Assembly: GCF_003627965.1 (NCBI RefSeq) | Contig: NZ_RBWE01000001.1 | Coordinates: forward strand, 62,001-126,000 | Length of the DNA: 64,000 nucleotides | Direction of reading: 5' to 3' | DNA from: Desulfofundulus salinus | GTDB lineage: Bacteria > Bacillota > Desulfotomaculia > Desulfotomaculales > Desulfovirgulaceae | Position numbers and translations under genes: made by a program | The notes under the pieces: generated by a model | What the model saw: the letters and a program-made list of their open reading frames with translations, nothing else | Databases searched by the model: none | Told to the model about the DNA's origin: nothing | Shown here: positions 3,046 through 22,811 of the stretch, piece after piece | Layout: each line of letters begins with the position of its first letter | Position numbering within the stretch: the stretch's first letter is position 1

Positions 3046-3169
3046 AAAAATTTAGCGGAAGAGAGGTGAGAGGAGAGAAGGTTGTTCTGGCTCTGGTTTC
3101 AGGTAATTTCAAGCATGGGTACTGCACAAGGCAAGGATACATTCAAGCGTTAGTAAAGGAGGCGTGCTG

Positions 3170-4585
3170 ATGTTTGAACCAAAGAGGCCTCAAAAAGAAC
3201 TAAAGTATGAAGAGCTTCGAATTTATACTGACGAAGAATTGAAAAACTTTACCGAAGAAGAATTAAAAGAATTTAAAATAAAGCACGAAATTCCCGCCCT
3301 GGAAGAGCTGGAGAAAGGACCGTGGCCCAGCTTTGTGGCCGATGCCAAGCAAGAGGCCCTGCGCCGCAGAAAGCTTGCCGACGACCGGATCATGATTGAC
3401 CGGTATGTGGTGGAAGACCTGCTGGGCCAGCTGGAGCTTTCCTTTAAGGACGGCGAGACCCACTGGAAGCACGGCGGTATTGTGGGCGTGTTTGGCTATG
3501 GCGGCGGCGTCATCGGGAGATACTCCGACCTGCCGGAAAAGTTCCCGGGCATTGCCCATTTCCATACCATCCGCGTTAACCAGCCAGCCAGTAAGTTTTA
3601 CAAGACCGATTTCCTGCGCTCACTCTGTGATCTGTGGGAGTACCGGGGCAGCGGCCTTGTGAATATGCACGGTTCCACCGGGGATATTATTCTTTTAGGA
3701 ACCACCACCGAGCAGCTGGAGCCCATTTTCTACGACATGACCCATGAACTGGATCAGGACCTCGGCGGTTCCGGCTCCAACCTGCGGACTCCCTCCTGCT
3801 GTATCGGTAAAGCTCGCTGCGAATGGGCCTGCTACGACACCCAGGAAATGTGCTATGAGATGACCATGCATTACCAGGACGAGCTTCACCGCCCGGCCTT
3901 CCCGTACAAGTTTAAGTTCAAGTTCGACGGCTGCCCCAACTGCTGTGTGGCTTCCATTGCCCGTGCCGACATTGCCTTTATTGGCACATGGCGCGACGAC
4001 ATCCGCATCGATCAGGAAGCCGTGAAGGGATACATTGCCGGCGACATTGTGCCCAGGGGTGGTGCCAACAAGGGCAGAGACTGGGGCAAGTTTGACATTC
4101 AAAAGGAAGTCATCGACCTTTGCCCATCCCAGTGCATGTGGATGGAAGACGGCAAGCTGATGATCGACAACAAGGAATGTGTGCGCTGCATGCACTGCAT
4201 TAACGTGATGCCGCAGGCGCTCAGACCCGGCCAGGACACCGGCGTGAGCATCCTGGTGGGTGCAAAGGCCCCCATCCTGGAAGGCGCACAAATTTCGCAG
4301 GTGATCGTGCCCTTTATGAAGGCGGAGCCGCCCTATGATAATATTAAAGAAGTTATTGAAAGAATCTGGGATTACTGGATGGAAGAAGGAAAGAACCGCG
4401 AGCGTGTTGGAGAGCTCATCCAGCGTGTTGGCTTGCCCAAGTTCCTGGAGGCAATCGGCCTGCCGCCTGCACCGCAAATGATCAAGGCGCCGCGTGCCAA
4501 CCCGTACATCTTCTGGAAGGAAGAGGACGTACCCGGCGGATTCACCAGAGACATTAAAGATTATCGGGCCAGACACAAGAGGTAA
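3170..4585 (+). CDS. dsrA: Dissimilatory sulfite reductase, alpha subunit
   Basis: With DsrB it forms the cytoplasmic alpha2beta2 siroheme enzyme that reduces sulfite and loads the product onto DsrC. The 471-residue protein has the siroheme/[4Fe-4S] cysteine motifs [12 protein letters not shown] (near 3796) and CPNCC (near 3933), then an inserted ferredoxin domain with CPSQC and CVRCMHC (4120-4200). The ATG at 3170 is chosen over the GTG at 3164 because AAAGGAGG at 3155-3162 fits it better. The N-terminal ~50 residues are unusually charged (EEL/KEF repeats). dsrB follows 20 bp later. Confidence 0.98.
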
Positions 4586-4605
4586 ATAATAAGGGGGTTT
4601 GTTGG

Positions 4606-5793
4606 ATGGCTCTTTCCACTGGGAAATACGGTAAATTCGATCCGCAAAGTCCAACCAAGGATAGGATTACGGATATTGGTCCGCGCCACTACTGGGAATT
4701 CTTCCCGCCCAGCATTCAAAAGAACTACGGTAAGTGGTTATACCACGAGATCCTCGAGCCGGGCGTGCTGGTGCATGTTTCCGAGACCGGGGACAGGGTT
4801 TACACGGTCAGGTGCGGTTCGCCCCGCCTGATGACCGTACAGCACGTGCGGGAAATTTGCGATATTGCCGACAAATACTGCGACGGCTATGTGCGTTTCA
4901 CCACCCGCAACAACATCGAGTTTATCGTGGACAGCCTTGAGAAGGTGGAAGCCCTCAAGAAGGATCTGTGGAGCCGCAAGTTTGTTTCCGGAAGCTACAA
5001 GTTCCCCATCGGTGGCACGGGGGCCAGCGTCACCAATATCGTGCACACCCAGGGATACGTGCACTGCCATACCCCGGCCACGGATGCTTCCTCCCTGGTC
5101 AAGGCCGTCATGGACGACCTGTTTGACTACTTCACCGGCATGACCCTGCCGGCCAAGGTGCGGGTGGCGGTGGCCTGCTGCCTGAACATGTGCGGTGCGG
5201 TCCACTGTTCGGACATCGCCCTGCTCGGCATTCACCGGAAGCCCCCGATCATTGACCACGAGGTCATTGATCAGGTCTGCGAGCTTCCCCTGGTCATTTC
5301 TTCCTGCCCCCTGGGCGCCATTTCGCCCGACAAGACCCCGGAAGGCAGGAGGACCCTCAAGATTAAGGTTGAGCGCTGCATGTTCTGCGGCAACTGCTAC
5401 ACCATGTGCCCGGCTCTGCCCATTGCCGACAAGGAAGGCGACGGCGTAGCCATACTGGTGGGCGGCAAGATCTCAAACGCGGTCAGCGAGCCCAAGTTCT
5501 CCAAGGTAGTGGTGGCTTACCTGCCCAACAACTTCCCGCGGTTCCCGGAAGTGGTCCAGACCGTGAAGAAGATTGTGGAGGTTTATGCCGCCGATGCCCG
5601 GAAGCACGAGCGCCTGGGCGACTGGGCCGAGCGTATCGGTTGGGAGAAATTCTTTGAGAAGACCGGTATACCGTTTACCGAGCACCTCATTGACGATTAC
5701 CGCCTGGCCTACGACACGTTCCGGACCAGCACCCAGTTCAAGTTCACGGAAGCGGCCTGGAACGTTTCCAGGGCGGCCGGTGGAATTGACTAA
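4606..5793 (+). CDS. dsrB: Dissimilatory sulfite reductase, beta subunit
   Basis: Partner of DsrA. In this family the beta subunit contributes the functional siroheme site. The 395-residue product shows [13 protein letters not shown] (around 5173-5210) for siroheme/cluster binding and a ferredoxin domain with [14 protein letters not shown] (5377-5415). It is 20 bp downstream of dsrA with AAGGGGGTT as ribosome binding site, so the two are co-transcribed. Length and motif order match known DsrB proteins. Confidence 0.98.
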
Positions 5794-8415: not shown

Positions 8416-9222
8416 GTGACCTACTTTATTGCCCAAATATTGCCGTATATTACGGTTACCGTTTTTATTCTCGGGGTTATTTACCGGCTCTGGCGCTGGG
8501 CGGCATCGCGGATCGTGCACAACATTACCCTTTCGCCCTTTCCCCAGACCAAAACAGAGGTGCTGGGCATTTACCTGCGGGAAATCCTGCTTTTTCGTAA
8601 CGTCTTCAACTTCGACCGCCCGCTGTGGGTAGGCGCCTGGCCCATGCATATAGCTTTGCTCAACGTGATTGGCGGTCACGTGGTGGGCTTTTACTTCCTG
8701 GGCAAGCAGTTTGTTTACCTGGGGGCCTCTGAAGCCCTGAGCAAATATTTATCCAACCTGCTGGGAACGGTTTTTGGAATAATCCTGCTGGCCGGGTTGT
8801 TGTACCTCCTTTACCGGCGGGTTGCCATTGACAAGCTCAGGCAGGTGTCCAACCCGAGCGATTATCTCATGCTACTTTTGCTCATTGCTATAGTATCTGT
8901 AGGTAACTTCATGCGCCTGGTTCCGGAATACGGTATGCACTACGAACCGGTGAAGGAGTATTTTACCACTCTCATCCTGTTCCAGCCAGCAGCGATTCCC
9001 GAAGGTAATCCTTTCTTTATCACCCACTTGTTGCTGGCCCAGATCCTGATTATGGTCCTCCCCTTCAGCAAGCTGATGCACCTGTTTGGCATGTTCGGCA
9101 TGCGCTGGATTGAAAACCGGGTCTATAAGGAGCCGGCACCCGGGTTGCCCAACGTAGACGTGGCCGCTGCCCGGGCCAGGGGAACCGGCCTTTCGTCCGC
9201 CGGCAGCACAGACGTGGCTTAG
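8416..9222 (+). CDS. dsrM: DsrM, b-type cytochrome of the sulfite reduction membrane complex
   Basis: A 268-residue integral membrane protein of the NarI/DsrM type with about five or six hydrophobic helices and several helix-embedded histidines, as expected for haem b binding. It should take electrons from menaquinol and pass them to DsrK. GTG 8416 has AGGAGGTG at 8401-8408. The 183-bp gap after the HEAT gene shows no gene. No dsrJ, dsrO or dsrP genes follow, matching the short DsrMK complex of Gram-positive sulfate reducers. Confidence 0.92.
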   Translation: MTYFIAQILPYITVTVFILGVIYRLWRWAASRIVHNITLSPFPQTKTEVLGIYLREILLFRNVFNFDRPLWVGAWPMHIALLNVIGGHVVGFYFLGKQFVYLGASEALSKYLSNLLGTVFGIILLAGLLYLLYRRVAIDKLRQVSNPSDYLMLLLLIAIVSVGNFMRLVPEYGMHYEPVKEYFTTLILFQPAAIPEGNPFFITHLLLAQILIMVLPFSKLMHLFGMFGMRWIENRVYKEPAPGLPNVDVAAARARGTGLSSAGSTDVA

Positions 9223-9236
9223 AGGGGGTGTAACAG

Positions 9237-10619
9237 TTGCCAGAGTATAAGGGTTTGAAAATGCCGGCAAAAGCCACAGCCGAGGAGATGCGCCAGATAC
9301 ACATCGAGCCGGTGCCCGATGATCAAAAGGTTGAAAAGGCCATCCAGTACCTGGACGAGATGCGCAAGAAGTTCCGTTCTTTCGTGCTGGCCATGGAGTC
9401 GTGCGTGAAATGCGGCCTGTGTGCCGAGAACTGCCATACCTATCTGGGGACCAGGGATCCAAACAATATTCCCACCAACCGGGCGGAGCTGATCCGGAAA
9501 ATATACCGGCGTTACTTTACCCTGGAAGGGCGCTGGTTCGGTAAACTGGTGGGGGCGGAGGACCTGAACCTGGACATCATCGAACAATGGTATTCTTACT
9601 TTTACCAGTGCAACGAGTGCCGGCGTTGTGCCCATGTCTGTCCCTTTGGTATCGATACCTGCGAGGTGACCATGATTGGACGCCAGATCCTCCACTGGCT
9701 CGGCATTGTGCCCAAGCTGCACGCCAGTGTGGGGGCGGCCATGGAAAGGACGGGCAACCATACCGGCCTGACCAAGCCGGCCATTGTGGATACCCTGGAG
9801 TTTCTTTCCGAGGAAATTAAAGATGAGTTCGGCGTCGACGTGGAATTCCCCGTGGATAAAGAGGGGGCAGACATCATGTACGTGCCTTCCTCCGCCGACT
9901 TTTTGCTCAACCCGTATACGCTGATGGGTGCGGGGATGTTCTTCACGTATATCGGTGCCAACTGGACCATACCGAGCACCATTACCGAGGCGGGTAACTT
10001 CGGCCTGCTTTTCGACCAGCAGCACACCATGCGGCATAATTTCACCCGCCTGCTCCACGCGGCTCAAAAACTGGGCGTCAAGAAAATCGTCTGGGGCGAG
10101 TGCGGTCACGGCTGGCGGGCATGGAAGATGTACCTCCCGGGGATGGCCGATTTGCCCATCCGCTGGCCCATTACCCACATTCACGACGAAGTGGCCTACT
10201 ACATTCGTACCAACCAGCTAAGGCTGGATCCCTATAAAATCGGCCGGCCGGTAACTCTGCACGACCCGTGCAACTACGTGCGGGCCTGCGGTCTGGCTGA
10301 AAACATGCGTACGGTGATCCGGGCATGTGTGGCCGATTTCCGGGAAATGTACCCGAACAAAGAAAACAACTTCTGCTGCGGTGGCGGCTCGGCCATACTC
10401 TTCGATGACCCGGAAATGTACCAGCTGCGCATAAAATTCTCCGCGAAAAAGGCCGAACAGGTTCGGGCCACCGGGGTGGGCAGGGACGGAAACGGCATCC
10501 TGTGCGCTCCCTGTTCCATCTGTAAGGCCCAGCTGTACCCGATGGTAGAAGAGCACGAACTGGGAGTGGAGGTTAAAGGTTTAATCGACCTCGTGGGTAT
10601 GGCGCTGGTTTGGAAGTAA
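9237..10619 (+). CDS. dsrK: DsrK, HdrD-like iron-sulfur subunit
   Basis: A 460-residue protein related to heterodisulfide reductase HdrD. It has two ferredoxin motifs, CVKCGLCAENC and CNECRRCAHVCPFGIDTC, then CCG-type domains with HDPCNYVRACG and NNFCCGGGSA, which bind the noncubane [4Fe-4S] catalytic cluster in this family. With DsrM it is thought to reduce the DsrC trisulfide to release sulfide. The start is TTG 9237 with GAGGGGGTG just upstream, 14 bp after dsrM, so the two are translationally linked. Confidence 0.95.
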   Translation: MPEYKGLKMPAKATAEEMRQIHIEPVPDDQKVEKAIQYLDEMRKKFRSFVLAMESCVKCGLCAENCHTYLGTRDPNNIPTNRAELIRKIYRRYFTLEGRWFGKLVGAEDLNLDIIEQWYSYFYQCNECRRCAHVCPFGIDTCEVTMIGRQILHWLGIVPKLHASVGAAMERTGNHTGLTKPAIVDTLEFLSEEIKDEFGVDVEFPVDKEGADIMYVPSSADFLLNPYTLMGAGMFFTYIGANWTIPSTITEAGNFGLLFDQQHTMRHNFTRLLHAAQKLGVKKIVWGECGHGWRAWKMYLPGMADLPIRWPITHIHDEVAYYIRTNQLRLDPYKIGRPVTLHDPCNYVRACGLAENMRTVIRACVADFREMYPNKENNFCCGGGSAILFDDPEMYQLRIKFSAKKAEQVRATGVGRDGNGILCAPCSICKAQLYPMVEEHELGVEVKGLIDLVGMALVWK

Positions 10620-19395: not shown

Positions 19396-19608
19396 TTGTT
19401 CAAAAAATTGCTGCTGGCGATTTTTATTATTAGCTTTGCGTGCAGTGGGCTGTCGCCCGCATTGGCCAAAGAGCCCGCGCGGCCCGAGCTTACCCCTTAC
19501 CAGCTGTACTGGAATATTTTAAAGGTCCGGGAAAAGGTGGAAGTAAAAGAAAAGGCCTTTGAGCAAGCCCGCCTGGAGCTGCAACAATCCCTAATAAGGG
19601 AGGAATAG
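19396..19608 (+). CDS. Small exported protein
   Basis: A 70-residue protein with a clear signal peptide (KKLLLAIFIISFACSGLSPALA) and a short mature part of about 45 residues, mostly charged helix (ILKVREKVEVKEKAFEQARLELQQSLIREE). TTG start 19396 follows GGGAGGCGGGG. It is 3 bp before the next gene, so the two probably act together. No family recognised. Confidence 0.65.
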   Translation: MFKKLLLAIFIISFACSGLSPALAKEPARPELTPYQLYWNILKVREKVEVKEKAFEQARLELQQSLIREE

Positions 19609-19611
19609 TAT

Positions 19612-19971
19612 ATGGTTGAATTCCTTGGCTGGCTCGGTTTATTACTGCTCATAGGGACCCTTATGCCATTTTTTTTACGCCGCTTACACCTTTGGCAAAG
19701 GGAAGTAACCTTTTTAGCACGTATTCATCACCACTTAGCTTTGACCTGCCTGGTGGTATTAACCCTGCATGGTCTTTGGGCTCTTAACGGACGGCGAGGG
19801 TGGGGAGCCTGGATACATGTTAAGGGTGAGATGATTTCTGGAGTACTTACTTGGTCGATACTTTTAGCCGTATGTATGTTGGCCTTAACTTCGTTACGAC
19901 AGAAACGTTTTTCACGCACCCATTGCTGGCTGGTGGGATTACTGGTTTTGCTAGTGTTTTATCACATTTAG
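19612..19971 (+). CDS. Small four-helix membrane protein with paired histidines
   Basis: A 119-residue protein with four predicted membrane helices. Histidines sit at 39-41 and 53 in helix 2 and at 104 and 118 in helix 4, so each helix has a pair 13-14 residues apart. That is the spacing used for bis-histidine haem b in ferric reductase/YedZ-type and related membrane cytochromes. The second pair ends one residue before the stop. GGGAGGAATAG precedes ATG 19612. A haem-binding electron-transfer role is inference. The gene looks somewhat more AT-rich than its neighbours. Confidence 0.65.
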   Translation: MVEFLGWLGLLLLIGTLMPFFLRRLHLWQREVTFLARIHHHLALTCLVVLTLHGLWALNGRRGWGAWIHVKGEMISGVLTWSILLAVCMLALTSLRQKRFSRTHCWLVGLLVLLVFYHI

Positions 19972-20039
19972 CACATTGCCATTGCAGGCGTTACTAAGGA
20001 TATTCGCTTAACAGGGCGCAGCCCTTAAAAGGGCCCAGG

Positions 20040-20195
20040 GGGCATCGCCCACCTGGCGGGGGAGTTCGATGGGAGCAGGTTTCCCCGGGAACGGTGCTCA
20101 CCAGGGTGGGCAATACAGGGCTGTCCACCGGGCCGCATGTGCATTTGGAAGTCCGGGTTAACGGCCGGCCGGTGGACCCGGGGCAATATTTTTAA
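20040..20195 (+). pseudogene. Remnant of an M23 (LytM) peptidase C-terminus
   Basis: One frame reads WEQVSPGTVLTRVGNTG and then LSTGPHVHLEVRVNGRPVDP up to a TAA at 20193-20195. This is the end of an M23 zinc peptidase, including the HxH zinc motif; the intact gene at 52009 ends in a comparable way. No start and no upstream catalytic part is present, so it is a decayed fragment. The rest of the 432-bp gap (19972-20404) has a possible membrane-helix remnant near 20300-20370 but no gene. Confidence 0.7.
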
Positions 20196-20404
20196 TGTAT
20201 ACACTGGATTAACCGTTGTTATGCAATGCGTTAAAAACGCGACATGGCTGTATTAAGATCAAAACCACCAATGAGGGGTGTGGAAAATTGACTGATTCAG
20301 GTGCAACCTGCTTTTTGTTGCCCTGGCCGCTTTTGTGGCGGTGGTGATGTTTGCCGGGGGATACCTTGTTTGCTGCAGGCGTTCAAGAACCATAGTAGGT
20401 AAAC

Positions 20405-20986
20405 TTAACTCTTGCCGTCCTCCGTAACCAAATCAAATCCTTCGCGCACCCAGTCAATTTTACCGCCGGCCAGGTTATATACATTTTGGTATTTGGTACC
20501 TAATAATACTTCCGCCACCCGGTAACTTTTGCTGCCCGTTTCGCATATCAGCACAATAGCATCTGATGGCATTGCTCCCAGCGACTCCAGGTATTGTTCC
20601 GGCCTGGTCCGTAGTAGTCTTAAATCTCCCGGCAGTGAACCTTTGATGTGGCCCTCTTTGTATTCCCCCGGCGTGCTGACATCAATAAGAAACAAATTTT
20701 GTGTGGAAGATATCATTTCGGCCAGTTCCCGGGCGTTGATTTCCTTAACCTGGCCGGCGTTTTCCCGGGCGATGGGCGGGCCTTGTGGGGAAACAGCCGA
20801 AGCAGTTTGGCCGGGCTGTTTTTCATCAGTATTTATTACATTTGAATTATCCTGCCGCTCAGGTGATGCAGACGCTAACGGCGCTTGCACGGCAGTACTT
20901 TCCCCGCTACTTGAGCACCCCACCGAGCCTATTGATAAAACCAGTACCAGGACAAGCACGGCGCCTATATTTTTAAACACATGCAT
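20405..20986 (-). CDS. Rhodanese-domain lipoprotein
   Basis: A 193-residue exported lipoprotein with lipobox GSVGC near residue 27, a Ser/Pro/Gln-rich linker of about 60 residues, and one rhodanese domain. Its active loop is ICETGSKSYR with the sulfur-accepting cysteine. The start ATG (complement of 20984-20986) is set by AAAGGAGG 8 bp upstream; a longer in-frame start exists at 21004. It is the last gene of a three-gene operon with a MauE-like protein and a second rhodanese. A role in extracytoplasmic sulfane sulfur or thiol chemistry is likely but not shown. Confidence 0.88.
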   Translation of the reverse strand: MHVFKNIGAVLVLVLVLSIGSVGCSSSGESTAVQAPLASASPERQDNSNVINTDEKQPGQTASAVSPQGPPIARENAGQVKEINARELAEMISSTQNLFLIDVSTPGEYKEGHIKGSLPGDLRLLRTRPEQYLESLGAMPSDAIVLICETGSKSYRVAEVLLGTKYQNVYNLAGGKIDWVREGFDLVTEDGKS

Positions 20987-21000
20987 AGGGTTGCCTCCTT

Positions 21001-21462
21001 TCATGACTTGTTTCTCCTGGTGAGGAATGTATATGGGGTTAGTTTGACTCGATCAAAGTAAAGGACAAACAGGGCACCGGCCAGCATGACCATATCTTCA
21101 AAAATGGCCAGAAAACCCACCGTTCTTTCCACTCCGCTGAAACAACCGCACTCCACGTCCAGACCGCGGGCGGCACTAACTATTAAAATGGTAATGAACA
21201 TGGTTAGCAACCCGGATATTACCAGGGCGCCGCCTTTTGTGTTTAATCCCAGCAACAAACAAACCCCGGCCAAAGTTTCTATCCACGGGATGGCCACAGC
21301 CACCGGGCCAATCAGTTCATCCGGCAGGAGTTTATAATTGTACACCGAGGCGGCAAAATCCAGAGGTGCGAATATTTTGCCAAGCCCCGCATAGAGAAAC
21401 AACCCACCCATAATTAACCTGACCGCTAATTGAAAATAGTCGTTATGTAAAATTTTCATCAC
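21001..21462 (-). CDS. MauE/DoxX-like membrane protein
   Basis: A 153-residue protein with four membrane helices (LIMGGLFLYAGLGKIFAP at the start) and a CGC motif in DVECGCFSG, as in MauE/DoxX-type quinone- or disulfide-linked proteins. It overlaps the rhodanese gene on its upstream side by 4 bp, and its stop is close to the next start, so the operon is tightly coupled. MauE helps disulfide formation in methylamine dehydrogenase maturation. Here it may link rhodanese cysteines to membrane redox carriers (inference). Confidence 0.82.
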   Translation of the reverse strand: MMKILHNDYFQLAVRLIMGGLFLYAGLGKIFAPLDFAASVYNYKLLPDELIGPVAVAIPWIETLAGVCLLLGLNTKGGALVISGLLTMFITILIVSAARGLDVECGCFSGVERTVGFLAIFEDMVMLAGALFVLYFDRVKLTPYTFLTRRNKS

Positions 21463-22043
21463 CTTGCAGCACTTCCTTCCGGTTTAAATACGGGATAACC
21501 CGCTTCCAACCAACCGGGATAACCTTCACCCAGCACGTAAACGTTGGTATAACCCCGGTCCACCAGTTCCCTGGCCATTTCCACCCCCACATCGCATTCC
21601 CCGCCGCTGCAAAAGGTCACAATAACGGCATTCCGGTCGGGGATTAATTTTTCTATCTCCACTTCCCCCTTGACCACCGACATCAGGGATATACCAATGG
21701 AGCCGGTAATAGTCCCTTCCATATATTCTTCAGGGCTTCTGGCATCCAGAAAAATAGCCTGCCGTTCATCAAACAGTTTTTTGGCGGAAACCAGGTCGAT
21801 AAACTTTATATCGGGGCTTAATTGCTCCGCCTTTGCTTTGAGATCAGCAAGCTGTTTTTGCTGAATTTCGGCCAGTAGTTCGCCGCTAAGTGACTTTACT
21901 ACCAAGGGATAGTTAAATGTCCAACCAAGTAAACACGCGATGATAACTAAAAACAGGCATTGTTTAAGCGCAACGACGGTCAGTCGTTTTTTAGGTGCAG
22001 CACGGTTATTATTCTTTTGCTTACTTCCATTGCTTGTCGACAT
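21459..22043 (-). CDS. Membrane-anchored rhodanese-domain protein
   Basis: A 194-residue protein with one N-terminal membrane helix (VVALKQCLFLVIIACLLGW) and an extracytoplasmic rhodanese domain (IFLDARSPEEYMEGTITGS). The active loop FCSGGECDVG holds a second cysteine inside the loop, which is uncommon. ATG at 22043 fits GGAAAGGAGTG upstream. It is the first gene of the rhodanese-MauE-rhodanese operon. Its promoter region carries 11-bp-phased repeats matching those before the response regulator gene. Confidence 0.88.
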   Translation of the reverse strand: MSTSNGSKQKNNNRAAPKKRLTVVALKQCLFLVIIACLLGWTFNYPLVVKSLSGELLAEIQQKQLADLKAKAEQLSPDIKFIDLVSAKKLFDERQAIFLDARSPEEYMEGTITGSIGISLMSVVKGEVEIEKLIPDRNAVIVTFCSGGECDVGVEMARELVDRGYTNVYVLGEGYPGWLEAGYPVFKPEGSAAR

Positions 22044-22159
22044 ACGAACACTCCTTTCCCGAAACACAGGGCAATAAAAAGATTGGCAATTTTGCTTTTA
22101 ATCTGATGCGCTTCAATATAGAACTGGTGGTTTACTGGCATCCTTCAACCCTGCTAACT

Positions 22160-22213
22160 ATTATAACTACTATTTTTTGCCATTCTATGAACAAAATTTG
22201 AACAAACTGTGAA
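22160..22213 (-). promoter_or_regulatory. Operator/promoter of the rhodanese operon
   Basis: Read on the minus strand, TTCACA (22208-22213), TTCAAA (22197-22202) and TTCATA (22186-22191) are spaced exactly 11 bp. A -10 box TATAAT follows at 22165-22160 after 20 bp. The stretch TTCACAGTTTGTTCA is identical to one before the response regulator gene. Confidence 0.65.
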
Positions 22214-22222
22214 CAACCAGAG

Positions 22223-22276
22223 TTCGGTTTTTATTCACAGTTCATTCACAGAACGGCCAAAAATGACCAATATAAT
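22223..22276 (+). promoter_or_regulatory. Operator/promoter of the Spy-like gene
   Basis: TTCGGT (22223), TTCACA (22234) and TTCACA (22245) are spaced 11 bp, and TATAAT lies at 22271-22276, 20 bp after the last repeat. This mirrors the divergent operator next to it and fits binding by the same OmpR-type regulator. Confidence 0.65.
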
Positions 22277-22343
22277 AAAAAGTGCGGGGAGCCCGGCCGG
22301 TAATACCCCAAAATCTTCAAAGCCATAGGAGGGAGTTAAAAAA

Positions 22344-22811
22344 ATGAAGAAGAAAATAGTAATCCTTACTGTGACGCTGGTGCTGGCGCTCAGCATCGCC
22401 CAGGTGGCTTCAGCCGCCGGCATGGGCTGGGGCGGCGGCCCGCGGATGCTGGACAGCGACAACTGGGTCAGCCCGGTAGACGCCTTAAACCTCACCGACC
22501 AGCAAATTGAAACGATGCAGCAGCTGCAAAAGAACTGTTTCGAGCAAACCGGAGACCTGCGGGACAAGCTGCGGGACTTGATGTTTGACCTGCGGCAGTA
22601 CCGTCTGCAAAAGGACCCCGACCAAGCTCAGATTGACGCCAAAATCAAGCAAATCAACGATCTGAAGAGCCAGTTATATGAAATCAAGATGCAAACCAGG
22701 GAGCAGATGCAATCTCAACTAACCACTGAACAACTGGCGGAGATGGCCAAGATGAGAGGCTTTGGTAAACACGGCGCCCGCGGGTTTAGCGGGTTTAACG
22801 GGGCTAACTAA
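22344..22811 (+). CDS. Spy/CpxP-like periplasmic protein
   Basis: A 155-residue exported protein with a signal peptide ending VASAA and a helical mature part. It has two LTxxQ motifs (LTDQQIETMQQLQK and LTTEQLAEMAKM), the hallmark of the Spy/CpxP family of envelope chaperones and stress sensors. The C-terminus is Gly-rich. AGGAGGGAG precedes ATG 22344. In Gram-negative bacteria such proteins are controlled by CpxAR/BaeSR; here the phased repeats upstream point to the OmpR-type system at 13085. Confidence 0.85.
   Translation: MKKKIVILTVTLVLALSIAQVASAAGMGWGGGPRMLDSDNWVSPVDALNLTDQQIETMQQLQKNCFEQTGDLRDKLRDLMFDLRQYRLQKDPDQAQIDAKIKQINDLKSQLYEIKMQTREQMQSQLTTEQLAEMAKMRGFGKHGARGFSGFNGAN

Follow-up and report, generated by a model that had tools for sequence, protein, structure and literature searches.

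The locus examined here raises the question of why two rhodanese genes should flank a gene for a small membrane protein, and whether the three work as a unit. It lies in the window, by which we mean the whole 64,000-nucleotide stretch of Desulfofundulus salinus DNA that was analyzed, and comprises genes for a membrane-anchored rhodanese (R1), a four-helix protein of the MauE/DoxX superfamily (MauE), and a lipoprotein rhodanese (R2), all on the minus strand (Table 1). A preliminary description of this DNA had reported two rhodaneses flanking a four-helix MauE-like protein with a CGC motif, genes that overlap or nearly touch, and an extra cysteine in the active loop of one rhodanese; all of this was borne out. 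The R1 and MauE genes share a few bases; whether MauE and R2 overlap or are separated by 14 bases depends on the start chosen for R2. The extra cysteine belongs to R1.

Table 1. Positions of the genes of the rhodanese-MauE locus and of the adjoining intergenic region in the window
Feature	Position	Strand	Basis
R1, membrane-anchored rhodanese	21459..22043	-	ORF, Pfam, transmembrane prediction, ribosome-binding site
MauE, MauE/DoxX-superfamily four-helix membrane protein	21001..21462	-	Pfam, topology, AlphaFold2
R2, lipoprotein rhodanese	20405..20986 (alternative start 21004)	-	Pfam, lipobox, ribosome-binding site
Divergent intergenic region, shared with Metal_resist (CpxP/ZraP-like) gene	22044..22343	.	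Arrangement kept in Desulfoscipio

R1 (194 amino acids, with an ATG start behind a good ribosome-binding site) has a single N-terminal transmembrane helix at about residues 19 to 44, followed by a rhodanese domain that belongs to PF00581 (51.2 bits; cut-off, 22.2). Its cysteines are at positions 29, 37, 145, and 150, the last two enclosing the active loop, C145-SGGE-C150 (CX4C), and its AlphaFold2 model has a pLDDT of 90.6. MauE (153 amino acids; pLDDT, 91.3) has four hydrophobic helices and the motif C105-G-C107, is a member of PF07291 (100.4 bits; cut-off, 27), and also contains a DoxX domain (PF07681; 36.6 bits; cut-off, 23.6); it is the sole MauE of this genome. From the charge pattern of MauE, including its charged C terminus, the CGC loop is predicted to be on the outside. 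R2 is likewise a PF00581 rhodanese (53.9 bits; cut-off, 22.2), with a lipobox that fits the PROSITE pattern and a ribosome-binding site that supports the start at 20986. The catalytic cysteine is present in both rhodaneses (C145 in R1 and C154 in R2), and the active loop of R2 is an ordinary single-cysteine one, CETGSKS. Purifying selection acts on each of the three genes, with dN/dS values against the Desulfoscipio geothermicus orthologues of 0.25 for R1, 0.08 for MauE, and 0.22 for R2.

Searched with MauE, five additional genomes of the genus lacked the operon, and 4 of 60 relatives had a MauE. The closest copy is that of Desulfoscipio geothermicus (86% for MauE), where the order is R1-MauE-R2-cupin-thioredoxin-CcdA; the two genomes can be aligned around the operon, and about 3.4 kb with the cupin, thioredoxin, and CcdA genes has been deleted in the window. 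Elsewhere in the window's genome, one CcdA gene is followed by a gene for a TlpA-type thioredoxin. Two genes that are whole in Desulfoscipio, one TolC-like and one for a LysM/M23 peptidase, survive as remnants at 19400-20400 of the window, and a ferric-reductase-like gene has moved. A Metal_resist (CpxP/ZraP-like) gene at 22344-22811 diverges from the operon and is strongly conserved (88% identity to its Desulfoscipio neighbor; dN/dS, 0.06). The window also encodes dsrA, and with it a dissimilatory sulfite reductase; the genes for dissimilatory sulfite reduction, dsrA and a second dsr subunit followed by dsrM- and dsrK-like genes (3164-5793 and 8416-10619), lie 10 to 18 kb away from the operon.

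Which of the three genes belong together was read from their neighborhoods in other genomes. A genome-wide scan with a MauE alignment yielded at least 561 relatives. The best 80 loci, selected solely on MauE similarity, were read; R1 lay immediately 5' of MauE on the same strand, usually overlapping it, in 74 of these 80. One of the remaining six was cut by a contig end. The 80 loci span Deltaproteobacteria, Aminicenantes/Acidobacteria, Ignavibacteria/Kapabacteria, Marinimicrobia, Zixibacteria, Nitrospira, Eisenbacteria, Armatimonadetes, and Bacillota, and their other neighbors are lineage specific and otherwise unconserved. Desulfobacterota genomes were also sampled evenly; 89 of 247 contained this type of MauE, and a rhodanese adjoined or was fused to MauE in 95 of the 110 loci fetched. 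Because the invariance of the RG...CGC stretch among the 80 loci was partly forced by the search pattern, conservation of CGC was judged only on this pattern-free sample, in which every MauE (110/110) has the motif. No relative was found in the viral contigs searched, and two plasmid MauE matches that were inspected showed no linkage to a rhodanese. The conserved unit is R1-MauE.

R2, by comparison, flanks MauE only in the window, in Desulfoscipio, in another genome from the same order (without R1), and in two Deltaproteobacteria; a few further loci have another rhodanese near MauE. The three genes are thus rarely found together, R1 and MauE nearly always side by side, and the three-gene operon of the preliminary description was ruled out as a general unit owing to the rarity of R2. 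R2 is a third gene seldom present, of a rhodanese lineage distinct from that of R1, and its origin as a duplicate of R1 was also ruled out, the two falling into separate lineages in a small tree. The link that the same description had drawn to a sulfide-rich way of life is not required either, since many other phyla commonly have the R1-MauE pair.

The second cysteine is the hallmark of R1. C145 and C150 are invariant in an alignment of 47 R1 sequences, and the other rhodaneses of the window's genome, R2 included, have a single loop cysteine. Among the Desulfobacterota rhodaneses the pair is all or none: both cysteines were present at 62 loci, neither at 33, and the first alone at none. On the MauE tree, which has few columns and many unresolved forks, the pair looks ancestral and its losses clustered. 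Loss of the rhodanese cysteines in orthologues, named beforehand as a possible weakness of the proposed relay, presents a divided picture, the cysteines being kept in most lineages and lost as a pair in several. The CX4C arrangement is not exclusive to R1, as the Bacillus halodurans rhodanese 3NHV has C-WGPA-C. MauE retains its CGC where R1 is absent or has neither cysteine, so the two proteins are not strictly coupled. An apparent loss of MauE Arg99 along with the R1 pair (Arg at 126 of 134 loci with the pair and 13 of 34 without) came down to two to six independent contrasts and was not significant.

The strongest indication that the R1 cysteines are a redox pair, supplied by an electron route across the membrane, comes from TsoB (NF045694), a selenoprotein resembling a fusion of rhodanese and DsbD. 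The TsoB genes of Desulfobacterota contain two in-frame TGA codons, and the resulting Sec pair (UX4U) aligns exactly with C145 and C150 of R1 in 11 of 12 sequences; R1 thus has the two-residue loop of the TsoB type, with a redox residue at the catalytic position and at +5. The motif is given as UxxxxU in a review (PMC13188914). TsoB runs from a rhodanese through a DsbD membrane domain to a thioredoxin, and these stretches are matched separately by R1 (E value, 8.5e-13), CcdA (down to 1.7e-19), and thioredoxin (6.9e-5). The same parts occur as genes around the operon: thioredoxin and CcdA genes adjoin R1-MauE-R2 in L011 and L030 (in the latter in the order R1-MauE-R2-Trx-CcdA) and MauE-R2 in L012, and L260 and L261 have the order ArsM-Trx-CcdA-R1-[CDF-MauE]. 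It is because the Sec pair and the DsbD and thioredoxin parts of TsoB mirror R1, CcdA, and thioredoxin genes that we read the R1 pair as a putative redox pair. R1 itself is not a TsoB member, as it matches the curated model weakly (47 bits; cut-off, 805), has Cys instead of Sec, and is encoded separately, whereas TsoB is one polypeptide with Sec and DsbD and no MauE.

We therefore consider R1-MauE to be, with a probability of about one-half, an extracytoplasmic thiol/persulfide redox pair that works reductively, MauE recycling the R1 disulfide together with thioredoxin and CcdA where these are present. C145 would accept either a disulfide or sulfane sulfur donated by thiosulfate, polysulfide, or a protein persulfide; C150 would resolve the adduct, releasing sulfide or a thiol and leaving a C145-C150 disulfide. 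The outward CGC of MauE would shuttle electrons between the disulfide and a membrane pool, most likely that of menaquinone, and recycling would draw electrons from that pool through the CGC. In the fuller operons, thioredoxin and CcdA might provide a second, reducing route, and R2, an optional addition, may act as a one-cysteine sulfurtransferase and could pass sulfane sulfur on to R1. The model is built from gene linkage, conserved cysteines, predicted topology, and the alignment with the TsoB Sec pair, from which we infer the chemistry, its direction (reduction being favored), the coupling to quinone, and the hand-off from R2 to R1. We counted in its favor the position of R1 5' of MauE in 74 of the best 80 of at least 561 relatives, a genome without detectable DsbB or VKOR, and the precedent of M. 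tuberculosis DoxX-SseA-SodA; we counted against it the deletion of thioredoxin and CcdA in the window, though a CcdA-TlpA-type pair is present at the other site in the genome, and the CX4C of 3NHV. The outward-facing membrane relay for thiols or sulfane sulfur that had been proposed for the locus finds support in the case of R1-MauE, by adjacency, by the invariant cysteine pair, and by its Sec counterpart in TsoB, but does not extend to the three genes as a general unit.

Quinone binding by MauE would follow from what is known of the superfamily and from a weak fold match to vitamin-K-dependent carboxylase (Z score, 8.5 or less). No sequence relatives of this MauE were found in the PDB, and a Foldseek comparison of its model with the PDB gave no match under 0.001. 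VIA re-ranking placed NACHO/TMEM35A at the top (Z score, 13.7; 119 residues; 2.8 Å). The transmembrane region of vitamin-K-dependent carboxylase scored a Z of about 6 to 9, within the background of helical bundles, and was dropped as proof of quinone binding.

The main rival reverses the flow: R1 and MauE would oxidize outside thiols, sulfide, or thiosulfate and pass the electrons to menaquinone, making sulfane sulfur or protein disulfides after the manner of thiosulfate:quinone oxidoreductase or DsbB/VKOR. The anatomy of R1-MauE accommodates oxidative flow nearly as well as reductive flow; MauE belongs to the DoxX/DoxD superfamily and matches PF07681, the failure to detect DsbB or VKOR in the genome speaks for oxidation too, and the MauE of methylamine utilization is linked to disulfide formation. 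On the other hand, MauE has no DoxD/DoxA match, TsoB joins a rhodanese of the same cysteine-pair type to a DsbD-type domain, and CcdA and thioredoxin adjoin R1-MauE in several loci; DsbD and CcdA normally carry electrons outward. Even with the DoxDA of Bacteroides fragilis lying beside an exported thioredoxin (PMC6158253), a further point for oxidation, we regard this direction as rather unlikely.

A different function would be to guard or regenerate outer thiols, or to supply sulfide locally, alongside efflux pumps under arsenic, zinc, or cadmium stress. About 11 of the 110 Desulfobacterota loci encode MauE as a fusion with a CDF cation exporter (three verified with Pfam, the others assigned by similarity; L253-L262 are such fusions); an ACR3 arsenite efflux gene lies directly 5' of R1 in three of the fusion loci (L257, L258, and L262), and a gene for the arsenite methyltransferase ArsM is near in two (L260 and L261). 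A P-type metal ATPase gene precedes R1 in one Geobacter (L065), a split ArsP-type permease gene is near the operon in L011 and L012, and the window operon has its divergent Metal_resist neighbor. Because some Desulfobacterota thus fuse MauE to a CDF exporter beside arsenic genes, a likely context for R1-MauE is metal(loid)/thiol stress. As the function of the pair we find it unlikely: most of the 80 loci are without such neighbors in flanks of up to 8 kb, which is why we read the link as lineage specific, and four of the CDF-MauE fusions, which make up 4 of the 15 rhodanese-less Desulfobacterota loci, have no adjoining rhodanese even when read further upstream. Particular lineages may have put a general module to metal(loid) use. 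It is improbable that R1 and MauE share no more than a transcript, R1 as a housekeeping sulfurtransferase and MauE as a membrane protein unrelated to it, for although MauE occurs without R1 in five Bacteroidota/Kapabacteria-type loci and also beside cysteine-less rhodaneses, the two genes adjoin each other over many phyla amid unconserved surroundings, MauE and rhodaneses are directly fused, and the cysteine pair is all or none.

Taking the reductive reading of R1-MauE further, we speculate, with considerable doubt, that the pair is an unrecognized, phylum-spanning, quinone-linked equivalent of TsoB that reduces outside sulfane sulfur, with MauE standing in for DsbD or complementing it, and that it is coupled in some Desulfobacterota to metal exporters; these bacteria would then make sulfide or thiol where the metal(loid) exits the cell.

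Among known systems, the nearest functional precedent is that of M. tuberculosis, where SseA is an unanchored two-domain sulfurtransferase, unlike R1. There a membrane thiol-oxidoreductase complex is built from a DoxX protein, the sulfurtransferase SseA, and SodA; it resembles R1-MauE in combining a DoxX-superfamily membrane protein with a rhodanese-type sulfurtransferase in thiol homeostasis and differs in containing SodA and in maintaining mycothiol homeostasis (PMC6930017, PMC7907618). No sodA was found among the scanned genes adjacent to the operon. The MauE of methylamine utilization is of the same Pfam family, which the window's MauE matches far above the cut-off; that system is not known to include a rhodanese, and neither mauD nor methylamine dehydrogenase genes were among the neighbors scanned. 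The DoxDA thiosulfate:quinone oxidoreductase shares the DoxX/DoxD superfamily and a chemistry of sulfur and quinone, but the window's MauE matches only the MauE and DoxX families of Pfam, not DoxD or DoxA, and so is not a DoxDA, and the sulfur center of R1-MauE would sit in a separate rhodanese. The likeness to DsbB and VKOR is one of proposed role, in which four membrane helices, outward cysteines, and quinone come together; MauE has no Pfam match to either family and has CGC in place of CXXC, which places it outside both.

In the literature searched, with subscription papers largely outside it, we found no description of MauE or DoxX paired with a rhodanese in this way. R1-MauE points to a widespread, unstudied route for electrons or sulfur across the bacterial envelope, one that would add to thiol/sulfur redox chemistry in anaerobes without DsbB and VKOR. 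MauE/DoxX proteins are widespread and mechanistically obscure, and R1 is a clear candidate for the substrate-side partner of one large subfamily; the Sec pair of TsoB makes the chemistry of R1 directly testable.

MauE also occurs in other combinations. Direct fusions with a rhodanese number eight or nine proteins, of which L196 alone keeps the cysteine pair (CDGETC), the rest having a degenerate rhodanese. Eight fusions of about 485 to 530 amino acids join MauE to a rhodanese with neither cysteine (L202, L207, L208, L212, L214, L215, L220, and L224), the loop being replaced by a conserved motif of the YGG..SRR type, and L208 has a Pfam-verified cyclic-nucleotide-type domain in front. At a few loci of the Ignavibacteria type, the gene after MauE encodes a DUF1573-like protein that has a CGC motif (L101, 8496-8942; L103, 505-951). 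In other genomes of the window's phylum (L018, L019, L022, and L023), a distant MauE gene overlaps a thioredoxin-like gene rather than one for a rhodanese. Another MauE subfamily (L020, L021, L024, and L025) adjoins a gene with one in-frame TGA (QAD-TGA-GSC), the product of which is likely a selenoprotein.
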